DNA of 64,000 nt from assembly GCA_037355855.1 (NCBI GenBank), contig CM074767.1, forward strand, positions 1,860,001-1,924,000, in the 5' to 3' direction. The stretch is from Pseudo-nitzschia pungens (taxonomy: Eukaryota; Bacillariophyta; Bacillariophyceae; Bacillariales; Bacillariaceae). Positions 40,264 through 45,762 of the stretch are shown here, in pieces. Each line of letters opens with the position of its first letter. Position 1 is the stretch's first letter. The position numbers were made by a program, and so were the translations under genes. Below the pieces are notes generated by a model. That model had not been told where the DNA came from. It saw only the letters and a list, made by a program, of their open reading frames with translations, and did no database searches.

Positions 40264-41520
40264 ATGATTTTCGGTAGAACCGCAATGATCTTCCTCTCCT
40301 CCGTCGCGGCCCTCCGGTATTCGTCGCTGCGATCCGCCGGCAGATTCACAGTCTCGGCCTTTTCGTCTTCCCCGATCGCCGCCCCGCGATCCGCCGCCAC
40401 CAGCTCCTCCGCCCTGCGGGTTTCCTTCCTGGAAGATTTGACCCGCGGTTTCTCGAGCATGGCCGGGGGTGCGTCGGCCAAGTCCAAGTACTACACCGTC
40501 GGAATCACCGGAGCCAGCGGTCTGATCGGAACCGCCTTCCAGAACGAGTTGCAAAAGGCAGGAACCACCGTCAACGGCAAGCCCGTCCGCATCGTTGCCT
40601 TCCGCCGGGGCGACGAGGCCGAATCCGTGGACGCCGAATCCCTCAGCGACGAGGCCTTTGGAAGCAGCAAGTCGGTCGCCTGGAACCCGTCCGGCGGCGA
40701 AAACTCCGTCGACGAGACCGTCCTCAAGAGCCTCGACGCCCTCGTCCACCTGAGCGGGGAAAACATTTCCACCGGCGAGGGAATCCTCGCCCCCCTCGGA
40801 ATCCGGCCCTGGACCGACTCCAAGAAGCGGGAGATCCTCGACTCGCGCACCGTCACCACGGCGGCCCTGGCCTCCGCCCTGGCCCGCTCCGGAAACAAAA
40901 ACTGCGATCTGCTGGTTGCCAGCGGTGTCGGCGTCTACGGCCCCGACTTTGTCGGTCCCGGCGCCGCCCCCGCCGCCGACGAGTCGGCCGACGTCTCCTC
41001 CACCGCCGGATTTTTGGCGGAGGTATCCCGGGTGTGGGAGGCCGCCTCGGCGGACGCCAAGAAGGCCGGAAACCGCGTCGTCCAGATGCGCAACGGCGTG
41101 GCCCTCTCGACCAAGGGAGGGGCTCTCGCCAAGCTCTACCCCATTTTCTTTTTGGGCGGTGGCGGCATCGTCGGCAGCGGCGAGCAGTACTTTCCCTTCG
41201 TCTCCAACCGGGACATGGCCCGGGCCATGGTGCACCTGCTGGAAACCAGGTCCGTTTCCGGTCCTGTCAACCTCTGCGCGCCCGAACCGGCCACCAACGC
41301 CGACTTTACCAACGCCATGGGATCGGTTCTGAAGCGACCGACGCTCCTCCCCTTCCCGGGATTTGCCGTCTCGCTGCTCTTTGGGGAAATGGGAGAAGAA
41401 GTCTTGCTGGGGGGAACCAAGGCGGCGCCCAAGAAATTGCTGGACAGCGGATTCCGATTCCTCCACCCGACCGTCGAGGACGCGGTCCGATCCGCCGTCG
41501 AAGAGGAAACCGAGATCTAG
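40264..41520 (+). CDS. organelle-targeted SDR39U1/YfcH-family epimerase-like protein
   Basis: 418 aa from an ATG in a CACCATGAT context. After a Ser/Ala/Arg-rich presequence of about 70 residues comes a nucleotide-binding Rossmann motif G-I-T-G-A-S-G-L-I-G. Further blocks match the TIGR01777 branch of the short-chain dehydrogenase superfamily: A-L-V-H-L-S-G-E-N-I, the L-V-A-S-G-V-G-V-Y-G substrate segment, R-N-G-V-A-L-S, G-S-G-E-Q-Y-F-P-F-V and the C-terminal G-F-R-F-L-H-P-T. The fold would bind NADP(H), but the substrate is unknown. Plant and cyanobacterial homologues are linked to plastid division. The presequence contains V-S-A-F, reminiscent of the diatom plastid A-S-A-F motif, but its signal peptide is weak, so mitochondrion is also possible. 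Confidence 0.88.
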   Translation: MIFGRTAMIFLSSVAALRYSSLRSAGRFTVSAFSSSPIAAPRSAATSSSALRVSFLEDLTRGFSSMAGGASAKSKYYTVGITGASGLIGTAFQNELQKAGTTVNGKPVRIVAFRRGDEAESVDAESLSDEAFGSSKSVAWNPSGGENSVDETVLKSLDALVHLSGENISTGEGILAPLGIRPWTDSKKREILDSRTVTTAALASALARSGNKNCDLLVASGVGVYGPDFVGPGAAPAADESADVSSTAGFLAEVSRVWEAASADAKKAGNRVVQMRNGVALSTKGGALAKLYPIFFLGGGGIVGSGEQYFPFVSNRDMARAMVHLLETRSVSGPVNLCAPEPATNADFTNAMGSVLKRPTLLPFPGFAVSLLFGEMGEEVLLGGTKAAPKKLLDSGFRFLHPTVEDAVRSAVEEETEI

Positions 41521-42803: not shown

Positions 42804-43540
42804 CTTGTTTCATGTCTTGCTTGTACTGGAAAGAAAACATGGAAACATTGATTTTTTGAGAGTCTGAGAATTTGTGGAGGTTTTGAAAGTTGTTTCCAAC
42901 CTCGCTGTGATACGGTCGCGTTTTGCTTCACTATCCTTCCATACTTGAACTAGAGGAGAAAAGGAGAAAGAAACTACCGGTAATTACCAATAATTCATTT
43001 TCTGAAGAAGAAAGTGATGGAATCATCATATCTTTACGATAATTTCACTATTTGCGACTTAAGTCGTGCGGATAGATGCGATAAAAATTGTACTACACAT
43101 CGATAACATAGAAGACCAAACAATAATAGAACTCCGAACAAAAGCATGTCACATAGAATCGCCGGCCAGGAGGAACGACGTACGTTGCACGAAAACCAGG
43201 TAATACAGCAGTTGAAAACAACAAGTAGGAATGAACTAACGTTGCAAGTCGTGTTGTGTCCAGTGTGTGACTGCGACCGTCCAACCGACAAATCGAATAC
43301 CTTCCGTTCAAAAGAGCATGTCGGCTCTGATCGCCAAACCGTTTTCACGACCAAAGCACGAATGAGCGAACAGAGCACTTCCAAATACGCAAAGACAAAA
43401 GAAGGCGTAACAGGTAACAGCTAAGCTTAAGGTTTACGTGTACGTAGGAAAAAATAATTGACGCACCTCACCGCGACCGTATGAGCAACAATAAACACAA
43501 AAGATTGTTTTTAAAAGTAAATTTCGATCTATGGGGCAAC
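42804..43540. other. intergenic region before the tRNA locus
   Basis: No supported gene. The last 60 bp before the tRNA (43,490-43,540) are AT-rich and would hold any external Pol III upstream elements. Confidence 0.5.
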
Positions 43541-43623
43541 GCATTTGTGCCCGAGCTGGTCTAAGGGGTTCGACTCAAGTTCGAATATATTCGTATGCGC
43601 GGGTTCGAATCCCGTCGAATGCA
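43541..43623 (+). tRNA. tRNA-Leu(CAA), no intron
   Basis: 83 nt, type II tRNA. The acceptor stem GCATTTG (43541-43547) pairs with CGAATGC (43616-43622), with one G-U, and discriminator A follows. The D arm is CCC...GGG with the box-A-like TGGTCTAAGGGG. The anticodon stem is TTCGA/TCGAA with loop CTCAAGT and anticodon CAA. A long variable arm of 13 nt, typical of tRNA-Leu, comes next. The T arm is GCGGG-TTCGAAT-CCCGT, which includes box B GGTTCGAATCC. No intron is needed for the fold. No T-run terminator follows before the next tRNA. Confidence 0.93.
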
Positions 43624-43650
43624 CGGCAGTCAAACTGCTGACCTCAACCT

Positions 43651-43728
43651 TCGAATGGTCACGTGTTCGATTCACGTCGGGTGCTCTGTAGGCACCTGTA
43701 GCTCAGAGGCAGAGCGTTCGATTGCAGA
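43651..43728 (+). tRNA. circularly permuted tRNA-Cys(GCA): 3' half upstream of 5' half
   Basis: The 3' half comes first (43651..43685): TCGAA (anticodon stem, 3' side), TGGTC (variable loop), ACGTG-TTCGATT-CACGT (T arm), CGGGTGC (acceptor, 3' side) and T (discriminator). A 6-bp linker CTGTAG follows (43686..43691). The 5' half is 43692..43728: GCACCTG (acceptor, 5' side), TA, GCTC-AGAGGCA-GAGC (D arm), G, TTCGA (anticodon stem, 5' side), and TTGCAGA with anticodon GCA at 43724..43726. Rejoining 5' half to 3' half gives a 72-nt cloverleaf in which all four stems pair fully (one G-U in the acceptor). U73 is the universal tRNA-Cys discriminator. The loop T-T-G-C-A-G-A resembles plant tRNA-Cys. 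Neither half alone has a complementary partner elsewhere nearby. Maturation would need splicing at the anticodon loop and removal of the linker, as in red and green algal permuted tRNAs. Confidence 0.85.
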
Positions 43729-43881
43729 GTCTTTTTGTTCCTACTTTACTTTTGCCAGCTTGGTTCTCTATGTCGATTGCAGAGTCTTTTTGTTCCTACT
43801 TTACTTTTGCCAGCTTGGTTCTCTATGTCGATTGCAGAGACTTTTTGCTCCTACTTTACTTTTGCCAGCTTGGTTCTCTAT
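43719..43881 (+). repeat. 55-bp tandem repeat (3 copies) beginning inside the permuted tRNA
   Basis: Units start at 43719, 43774 and 43829, each beginning CGATTGCAGAG and continuing CTTTTTG...CCTACTTTACTTTTGCC...GGTTCTCTAT. Copies 1 and 2 are identical; copy 3 has a few changes. The unit takes in the last 10 nt of the tRNA 5' half plus the trailer and T-run, so the 3' end of the permuted gene has been triplicated. Confidence 0.95.
43732..43736 (+). terminator. Pol III terminator (TTTTT) after the permuted tRNA
   Basis: This is the first run of five T on the plus strand after tRNA-Leu. It lies 3 nt beyond the last tRNA base. Further T-runs occur in each downstream repeat copy. It implies one transcript covering tRNA-Leu and the permuted tRNA-Cys. 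Confidence 0.6.
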
Positions 43882-44241
43882 CCACTATCCAGAATACTGT
43901 AGATAAAAGTGATGATTGAAAAAATTCCAAGACCTTTCTTCAAACAATGTCAGAGGCACCACGCTCACATGAGAAACTATGGTAGCAGCAGCACCTGTGA
44001 AATTCGGTTGTGCTGTGGGGTTGCAGAACGAGGACAATTGTGGTTGTTCTGTATCTAGACCCATTCTATCAAGGATACCAAGTTTTCATAAAGAGATACT
44101 GCACTTTTCATATATTATGTATTTACTAGTATTATAATATTATAGTACATTATATTGATACAAACAACATTGTGAAATAGTATGAAATGATTTCACGACG
44201 TCCAAGTACACCTTCTTCGGTGTTAACAATGTATTCCTTGG

Positions 44242-45762
44242 TCAAAGATGCATTAGTACAAAATTTGCAACTCTACCAGCGACTCCGTCTTCCTGTGCCG
44301 GAGTGCACCTCCCAGCTCTCATATCATCACCTCGATCCGGCGCATATTGGACTGTCTTTCGAGTTGTCGTTCTGACGGTCCTTTCCATTGTCGTGGCGGA
44401 AGCCACGTAATATTTCCACATGAAGGGGGTTGCGTTGGAACGCGCGACCCCTACTCCCACCGCAGTGCCGGCTCCCACGACAACGGCACCGATCTGCGAG
44501 GCTGCCAGGGCCGCACCGACCGGACCCGATAGGAGCATCCCAACCACAGCGCCGCTGATCACTCCGCTGCCGACCGCCCCCGCCCAGATCCACATCGAGA
44601 TCCGTTGGGCCCGGAATCTCCGTGCGTTCTTACGAAAGGTGTCCGCGGCGTCATCCAGGCGGCGAAAGGCCTCCTCCCGGGATTTCTTGGATGCACTGCG
44701 GGAGTGGAGGAAGACGATGTCCGCGATCGCGGTTTCAAGTTCCTCGCACAGTTCGTTTCGCGCTCGGTGAGAGCGGAAGCTCTCGTTTTGTTCGTTGTAG
44801 TTCCACAGGAGGAATTCTAGCTCCTTCTGGATCACGTCGTCGTCGCTGGAAATTTTGATGTTGTTGTTCTTGTACTTTTTGTGGATCTGCCGCAGTTCAT
44901 TGACGCACTCTCCGGCGAGGGCTCTCGAAAACCCATCGGATACCACCACCAGGAAGACTGTTCCGTGCCGATCGCGAAGGTAGTAGTGCCAGTCCCCACT
45001 CGATTGAGGCCTGAAATAGGTGCAGTGTCCGCGCTGGAGACCATTCTCGGTATAGACGTCACCCAGGACGGTGCGTTTTGCATGCCCCAGGTAGAAGTCA
45101 TCGTTATCTTTAACTCTATCTTTCTCGTCGCCGCAGTGGTCCGAATGGCTCAGTTTGAGGATTGCCCTTCTGGAATTGTTGATCACGGCTACGAACTTGA
45201 CGTGCGGATCGGCCGAGGAGAATTTTAGGAGGGGAGTGATCTCCCATGCCCGGTGCGATGCGTTGGTGGCGCTCTCTTTTGTCGATTCTTTTCGAAATGC
45301 GAGGGCGCCCAATCCCTTGTGGCTGCTCAGATACAAACCGCTCCAGGTCCGGAATGCAAAGGAATTGTTCTCGGGGAAATGCTCCACGTAGAATCGCTCC
45401 GCGGGACCAATCGTCTCGTGGTAATCCACCTTGGACGATTCTCCGATGCCCGGGAGCCGCACCATTGTTCGGCGGCACGAAAGAAAGGTCCCCTTTTTCT
45501 CGCAGCGGATGGCAACGAATTTCCAGTTGGCTTTCATTTCTTTGAAAAAGTCTCCCCGTGTAGTTAGCGGAGTCTTGGGTTCCAGGATTTGTCCGTACGC
45601 ATCGAGGGGGACGAACCGAAACTTGGGTGGCGACATCAGTTTGCGGACCTTTCCCACCGGATGGGTTTGAAACAGAGAGTTGTTCGAGAGTATTTTTCCA
45701 TCATACTTGTGCAGGAATACGGTCGGAAACTTTGCCAGAGCCAAGGGAGTTACAGCTGCCAT
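44242..45762 (-). CDS. beta-trefoil / longin / R-SNARE-like membrane protein
   Basis: 506 aa from a clear ATG. Residues about 78-205 resemble a fascin/FRG1-type beta-trefoil (F-V-A-I-R-C-E-K-K-G-T-F-L-S-C, later W-S-G-L-Y-L-S-S-H-K-G). Residues about 230-330 look like a longin domain (H-Y-Y-L-R-D-R-H-G-T-V-F-L-V-V-V-S-D-G-F-S-R). Residues about 338-388 match a VAMP-type SNARE helix: E-L-C-E-E-L-E-T, then an Arg (R362) seven residues before L-D-D-A-A-D, the spacing of the zero-layer Arg in VAMPs. Two glycine/alanine-rich hydrophobic segments (about 389-412 and 414-440) would anchor it in a membrane, and a 65-residue tail follows. R-SNAREs drive vesicle fusion; the trefoil could bind actin, sugar or lipid. 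The assignments rest on motif reading and the SNARE part is divergent. Confidence 0.65.
   Translation of the reverse strand: MAAVTPLALAKFPTVFLHKYDGKILSNNSLFQTHPVGKVRKLMSPPKFRFVPLDAYGQILEPKTPLTTRGDFFKEMKANWKFVAIRCEKKGTFLSCRRTMVRLPGIGESSKVDYHETIGPAERFYVEHFPENNSFAFRTWSGLYLSSHKGLGALAFRKESTKESATNASHRAWEITPLLKFSSADPHVKFVAVINNSRRAILKLSHSDHCGDEKDRVKDNDDFYLGHAKRTVLGDVYTENGLQRGHCTYFRPQSSGDWHYYLRDRHGTVFLVVVSDGFSRALAGECVNELRQIHKKYKNNNIKISSDDDVIQKELEFLLWNYNEQNESFRSHRARNELCEELETAIADIVFLHSRSASKKSREEAFRRLDDAADTFRKNARRFRAQRISMWIWAGAVGSGVISGAVVGMLLSGPVGAALAASQIGAVVVGAGTAVGVGVARSNATPFMWKYYVASATTMERTVRTTTRKTVQYAPDRGDDMRAGRCTPAQEDGVAGRVANFVLMHL

Follow-up and report, generated by a model that had tools for sequence, protein, structure and literature searches.

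By 2014, 34 permuted tRNA genes had been recorded from six algae and one archaeon, among them type II tRNA-Cys(GCA) genes in three prasinophytes (PMC3978253); further cases are described from Auxenochlorella (PMC12633428) and from the nucleomorph of Amorphochlora amoebiformis (PMC4494063), and one of three other papers (PMC11528492, PMC2926784 and PMC8024477) cites a brown-algal mitochondrial 5S rRNA that is permuted. Among the open-access literature matches listed, taken by their titles and the starts of their abstracts, none reports a permuted tRNA from diatoms or other stramenopiles, and the first-pass annotation of this DNA likewise knew of no description from diatoms. Our analysis concerns positions 43650-43727 of a 64,000-nucleotide stretch of DNA (the window). 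Judged from its sequence, this locus, in a pennate diatom, is very probably a working nuclear gene for tRNA-Cys(GCA), permuted in the type II (37/38) manner. Together with six further copies it would make up the sole nuclear source of this tRNA, as far as the genome could be searched.

The nearest described counterparts are the genes of the prasinophytes Ostreococcus lucimarinus, O. tauri and Micromonas pusilla, which like those of the diatom are nuclear Cys(GCA) genes of type II, with a 37/38 junction and the 3' half first (PMC3978253). Their linkers are 26, 38 and 12 nt long as against 6-8 nt in the diatom, and the table of that paper gives one permuted Cys gene per species, whereas the diatom has seven. 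Prasinophytes belong to another eukaryotic supergroup, and tRNA-Leu neighbours, found at two copies, are a feature of the diatom in this comparison of descriptions. A set of eleven permuted genes described in the same paper shares with the diatom an upstream TATA-like element, a T-run terminator and a BHB-like junction, but comprises several isotypes with varied junction positions; Cys is not in its table, and its largest family consists of two Gly(CCC) genes (PMC3978253). The permuted tRNA-Ser of the chlorarachniophyte Bigelowiella natans resembles the diatom genes in its type II junction and in its very short linkers, of 5 nt (PMC3978253), but both this case and that of Amorphochlora amoebiformis (PMC4494063) are described as tRNA-Ser of a reduced green-algal nucleomorph, unlike the nuclear Cys genes reported here. 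The diatom genes are permuted tRNA-Cys of the known type II kind in a new lineage, where they are multicopy and apparently the only nuclear source.

Read directly from the + strand, positions 43650-43727 run, element by element, T TCGAA TGGTC ACGTG TTCGATT CACGT CGGGTGC T / CTGTAG / GCACCTG TA GCTC AGAGGCA GAGC G TTCGA TTGCAG. The first-pass annotation had put the 3' half first, with a 6-bp linker separating it from the 5' half, and in its frame the 3' half reads TTCGAATGG...GGGTGCT, followed by the linker CTGTAG and by the 5' half GCACCTG...TTGCAG; the direct reading bears out both the order and the linker length. Rejoined, the halves give a tRNA of 72 nt with an acceptor stem of 7 bp (one U-G pair), a D stem of 4 bp, anticodon and T stems of 5 bp each, the anticodon GCA and the discriminator U73, and the complementarity is as had been claimed. 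The GC content of the window is 47%. The parts of the locus are collected in Table 1.

Table 1. Features of the permuted tRNA-Cys locus and its surroundings, in positions of the window.
Feature	Position	Strand	Basis
Conventional tRNA-Leu(CAA), directly upstream, perhaps on a common transcript	43541..43624	+	ARAGORN; Rfam tRNA 51.8 bits at 43541-43623
Spacer of 25 nt, or pre-tRNA leader of the permuted gene; lacks a T-run, thus no terminator seen behind tRNA-Leu	43625..43649	+	Sequence
Leader stretch facing anticodon-loop bases 32-35 (3 of 4 pairs in the window copy); central helix of the bulge-helix-bulge-like site	43644..43647	+	Register comparison, seven copies
tRNA-Cys 3' half: variable loop and T arm, with the 3' strands of the anticodon and acceptor stems and U73 (positions 38-73)	43650..43685	+	Direct reading, copy comparison, covariance model
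Linker between tRNA 3' and 5' ends, CTGTAG, 6 nt	43686..43691	+	Copy comparison
tRNA-Cys 5' half: D arm and GCA anticodon, with the 5' strands of the acceptor and anticodon stems (positions 1-37)	43692..43727	+	Direct reading, copy comparison, covariance model
Tandem repeat of 3.0 units of 55 bp, the first of them beginning within the 5' half	43718..43881	+	Repeat finder
Trailer AGTC	43728..43731	+	Copy comparison
T5 run, likely RNA polymerase III terminator	43732..43736	+	Sequence

Pairing of this kind between two halves had been held to be more than random fragments would show, and a covariance model agrees. Its rows were five tRNAs from the same genome, none of them Cys, whose halves had been swapped in silico; it scored the window copy at 68.5 bits (E ~1e-19, on a rough calibration). 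Over the 84,783 bases in 22 sources that were searched, it ranked the seven Cys copies top, at 60.0-69.7 bits, and the next-best match, at 43.3 bits, was to two normal tRNAs lying side by side, Ala and Met, both of which are rows of the model; adjacent normal tRNAs, reaching at most 43.3 bits, are thereby ruled out as the explanation of the Cys copies. With this score and with seven permuted loci, the identification as a circularly permuted tRNA-Cys(GCA) gene stands. In the minimum-energy folds of the rejoined tRNAs computed with RNAfold, the acceptor, anticodon and T stems form in all seven copies; an alternative replaces the D stem in six of them, including the window copy, and copy C7 alone folds as a full cloverleaf.

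A BLAST search of the whole genome (66.9 Mb, 28 contigs) with the rejoined tRNA returned 14 matches, each of about half a tRNA, which pair up as seven loci on five contigs: two on C12, 174 bp apart, two on C10, of which one is the window copy, and one each on C1, C7 and C11. At every one of these the 3' half lies directly upstream of the 5' half on the same strand with a linker between, and the halves measure 36 + 36 nt throughout and are near-identical. The linkers diverge: six are 6 nt long and that of C7 is 8 nt, and all seven differ in sequence (CTGTAG, AATATC, ACTCCT, ACGATT, CTGTAC, ATCAATTC and TCTGTT). The copies keep the anticodon stem-loop with GCA and U33, and U73, as well as the 7-bp acceptor stem except in C11, so that rejoining yields the consistent anticodon and discriminator of a type II permuted gene. 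Copy C11 is the most divergent, has one acceptor-stem mismatch (6/7 bp) and may be decaying. That the permuted order is an assembler's error has a negligible probability: organelle-type DNA does stand inside large contigs, so some joins may be wrong, but the order is the same at all seven loci, which are spread over five contigs and differ in their linkers.

The two C12 copies have flanks common to both, judged by eye, and their 3'-5'-3'-5' array looks like the pattern expected of tandem duplication of a permuted gene. Equally, a permuted gene could first have arisen where two conventional genes with introns stood in tandem and the outer halves were lost. Outside the C12 pair, the conventional order of a 5' half followed by a 3' half is absent from the BLAST matches at the seven loci. 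The pair itself also spells, at C12:1706029-1706196, a 5' half, 96 nt and a 3' half, which the Rfam tRNA model scores at 48.4 bits; T5 and T6 runs inside the 96 nt argue against read-through transcription of this reading as a conventional gene with an intron. By exact motif, the 3-kb locus of the window copy holds no further 3' half, and among the loci checked the C12 pair alone permits an intron reading. The arrangement of a conventional intron-containing gene, with the 5' half before the 3' half and an intron at 37/38, is therefore not the one found.

Comparison of the seven copies also fixes the junction. The base preceding TCGAA is T in all seven, whereas G37 is followed by a variable base (A, A, C, A, A, A and T), so the join most likely falls at 37/38 with U38 supplied by the 3' half. 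U38, the first base of the 3' half, would then be 43650, and G37, the last of the 5' half, 43727, which moves the junction proposed in the first-pass annotation, 43728 to 43651, by one base. Position 37/38 is the usual splice position of eukaryotic tRNAs. The copies further carry a candidate splice signal there. In the known bulge-helix-bulge (BHB) motif at 37/38 the register is set, with the leader pairing to loop bases 32-35 and three nucleotides bulging out at the 3' splice site (PMC3978253). In this register at least three contiguous pairs of the four possible between leader and anticodon loop, G-U allowed, are present in 7/7 copies; 22 other registers give the same pairing in 0-3 of the seven. 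Shuffled leaders reach it in 14-18% of cases, for a product probability of ~1e-4 counting five locus families or 2e-6 counting seven copies, in a test that was devised after the leaders had been inspected, though the known motif fixes the register. The U32-A pair beside the bulge is missing in two of the seven copies. An energy test of whole leaders against whole trailers did not separate the true pairs from chance: among 5040 re-pairings, 1229 were equally good, and a long leader-trailer helix was rejected on this ground; support is thus confined to the inner helix, and the junction at 37/38 is BHB-like in the sense of a relaxed motif.

The arrangement of transcription signals is that of a single transcription unit. 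A run of five or six T begins 3-7 nt after G37 in all seven copies and no T4 occurs between U38 and G37, which by sequence places a terminator behind the 5' half and none between the halves. It is possible to read these loci as debris, fragments of tRNA-Cys rearranged by duplication and without function while an undetected conventional gene supplies the tRNA. The acceptor mismatch of C11 would fit such a reading, as would the fact that the genome-wide Rfam tRNA search scored just 63 of 4671 candidates, but debris would hardly be expected to keep near-identical halves of 36 + 36 nt at seven loci despite differing linkers, nor the T5-6 run and the splice-register helix in every copy; with no conventional nuclear gene found by BLAST or by patterns, we regard this explanation as very unlikely.

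Upstream, TATATA starts at -41 relative to U38 in the first C12 copy and in C7 and at -40 in C11, and the other four copies are without TATA within 60 nt; the same holds for the 60 nt upstream of six conventional nuclear tRNA genes, two of which are the tRNA-Leu genes adjoining permuted copies. Among shuffles of the three AT-rich stretches that bear the element, 41-50% contain TATA, and it is therefore the constant position alone that is notable. Two permuted copies, that of the window and that of C1, are preceded by tRNA-Leu(CAA) at 25 and 29 nt respectively; this tRNA-Leu has nine matches in the genome, two with a permuted Cys gene behind them. Neither Leu-Cys interval holds a T-run ahead of the Cys 3' half, and other nuclear tRNAs are closely spaced too (Ala-Met-Leu, Arg-Asp and Thr-Gln), which makes it plausible that tRNA-Leu and the permuted tRNA-Cys are co-transcribed at both loci. 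A small hairpin is predicted in each of these two spacers, near the start in that of the window; the sequences differ, and the hairpins are perhaps a processing signal.

The weight that falls on the family depends on whether a conventional nuclear tRNA-Cys exists beside it. None was found by the whole-genome BLAST with the rejoined tRNA or by sequence patterns, genes with an intron being covered by the BLAST and one of the patterns. That intron-allowing pattern, which recognised three of seven other nuclear tRNAs when these were given a GCA anticodon, matched 10 places genome-wide, three of them the 5' halves of permuted copies. Six more belong to one repeat family with three distinct sequences, in which 1-2 of the five anticodon-stem pairs form without an intron and 3-4 when one is allowed, and were rejected. 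The tenth, at C5:3225885, was set aside as well: it has 0/5 anticodon-stem pairs without an intron and 5/5 at one of 31 spacings, and ARAGORN reports no tRNA there. Patterns for the anticodon loop and the T arm gave 62 + 39 = 101 places, of which 47 were examined (44 loci, one with two places, and two more), the other 54 being near-identical copies by eye; the tRNAs among the 47 were plastid-type Cys and mitochondrial-type Cys and Ala, with no other tRNA-Cys. A looser pattern gave 149 places, about 100 of them among the matches listed, the 48 with A or G at base 32 being left out.

The conventional tRNA-Cys genes that do occur lie in organelle-type DNA. One, at C2:7139959-7140031, stands among nad1, rpl5, rpl14, rps7, rps12 and tatC in DNA of 29% GC, and these neighbours and this composition mark it as mitochondrial-type; another, at C5:6005657, is in a 9.9-kb stretch of 31% GC with rpl13, rps7, tufA and a cpn60-type gene, neighbours that mark it as plastid-type, and its matched letters recur twice on C7. 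The first-pass annotation had considered that this might be the only tRNA-Cys gene of the genome. This needs amending, in that the gene is one of seven permuted copies in the BLAST, and no conventional nuclear copy was found by BLAST or patterns; the several normal tRNA-Cys genes that would have spoken against the annotation's reading did not appear in the nucleus in these searches, the conventional ones being those of the mitochondrial-type C2 and plastid-type C5 DNA.

The organelle-type regions deserve a remark of their own. The mitochondrial-type cluster occupies C2:7.117-7.157 Mb within an 8.8-Mb contig and holds nad1, tatC, rpl5, rpl14, rps7, rps12 and many tRNAs; it is either a large nuclear insert or an assembly join. 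Many identical repeated tRNA genes lie near contig ends at C5:5.86-6.01 Mb and C7:4.80-5.22 Mb, and the plastid-type 9.9-kb piece of C5, with rpl13, rps7, tufA and cpn60, looks as if plastid genomes had been concatenated there.

A different reading of the same layout is offered by the bacterial YrlA Y RNAs, non-coding RNAs that mimic a tRNA and in which the two ends pair into a stem that carries a tRNA-like domain (PMC8394870). This described layout of end-to-end stem and tRNA-like domain resembles a permuted pre-tRNA, and six of the copies score 31.7-39.3 bits with the Rfam YrlA model (E 7e-4 to 5e-6), the window copy having been searched at the gathering threshold, at which it goes unreported. 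These scores are, however, far under the gathering score of 69 bits that delimits the family, and YrlA is not a tRNA, whereas the diatom copies keep the GCA anticodon stem-loop, U33, U73 and the 7-bp acceptor stem (6/7 bp in C11). Together with the splice register and the want of any other nuclear tRNA-Cys among those found, this makes a tRNA-mimicking RNA extremely improbable here. Beyond the diatom, the permuted-Cys pattern was also run over viral contigs, where 13/13 loci looked like chance or adjacent normal tRNAs and were dismissed, and over bacterial and archaeal contigs, where an A box stood behind the match in none of at least 120 loci.

That the host is a diatom, as the first-pass annotation had supposed in calling the genome diatom-like and nuclear, is supported by the protein encoded in the window at 40264-41520. 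Among the 120 relatives listed for it, the closest that bear a species name are from Pseudo-nitzschia multistriata (80%) and P. australis (77%), followed by Nitzschia inconspicua and Cylindrotheca closterium; a metagenome relative in the same list is 96% identical over 84% of the length. These relatives point to a member of the Bacillariaceae close to Pseudo-nitzschia. The genome encodes a tRNA-splicing endonuclease domain (PF01974) at C2:1561023 (E 7.5e-14), in a frame that matches solved tRNA-splicing endonucleases (best E 7.8e-5). A further match to PF01974 at C3:1930714 is weak (E 0.019, below the family cut-off), and its frame has zero matches among solved structures. An RtcB ligase was not found in the genome in a search for which 9/14 controls were positive, and the PF09511 profile had zero matches in the genome and zero in the controls too.

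Our data, coupled with what is described for red and green algae, suggest a model for the processing of these genes. RNA polymerase III would produce a linear RNA that stops at the T5 run. At the window copy this RNA perhaps includes the upstream tRNA-Leu, and at three others it perhaps starts from the upstream TATA element. The halves, whose complementarity is evident from the letters, would fold into the tRNA body with the linker closing the acceptor stem, while the leader pairs with the anticodon loop to form the bulge-helix-bulge-like site at 37/38 that the register comparison points to in 7/7 copies. By analogy with the algal cases, the tRNA-splicing endonuclease would remove leader and trailer and a ligase would join G37 to U38 to give a circle, from which RNase P and RNase Z may excise the linker before CCA is added. 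Since every nuclear tRNA-Cys gene found is permuted, formation of a circle and its re-cutting are probably needed for an indispensable tRNA. We go further, with less assurance, in favouring the view that the conventional nuclear tRNA-Cys was lost altogether and replaced by the duplicated permuted family, with every cytosolic cysteine decoded via a circular RNA and the Leu-Cys transcript yielding one tRNA processed in linear form and one processed through a circle.

With these loci, the range of permuted tRNA genes would extend to diatoms, as a multigene family for which no conventional nuclear counterpart was found, and without such a counterpart the circular intermediate would be essential and not optional. 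The isotype and junction common to diatom and prasinophytes raise the question of independent origin as against transfer, and the seven linkers and leaders form a natural set for probing what splicing enzymes require. Ordinary tRNA finders may be blind to such genes. Within the window, ARAGORN and Rfam at the gathering threshold reported the tRNA-Leu(CAA) alone and missed the permuted Cys gene; across the family, ARAGORN reported 0/7 permuted copies and the Rfam tRNA model picked up the conventional-order reading of the C12 pair only, so such genomes may be reported as lacking tRNA-Cys. The immediate surroundings of the window copy show one further peculiarity. A repeat finder, run over window positions 43001-44500 and thus on this copy alone among the seven, picked out the 55-bp tandem repeat of Table 1, which duplicates the end of the anticodon loop and a T5 run and is possibly a product of slippage.
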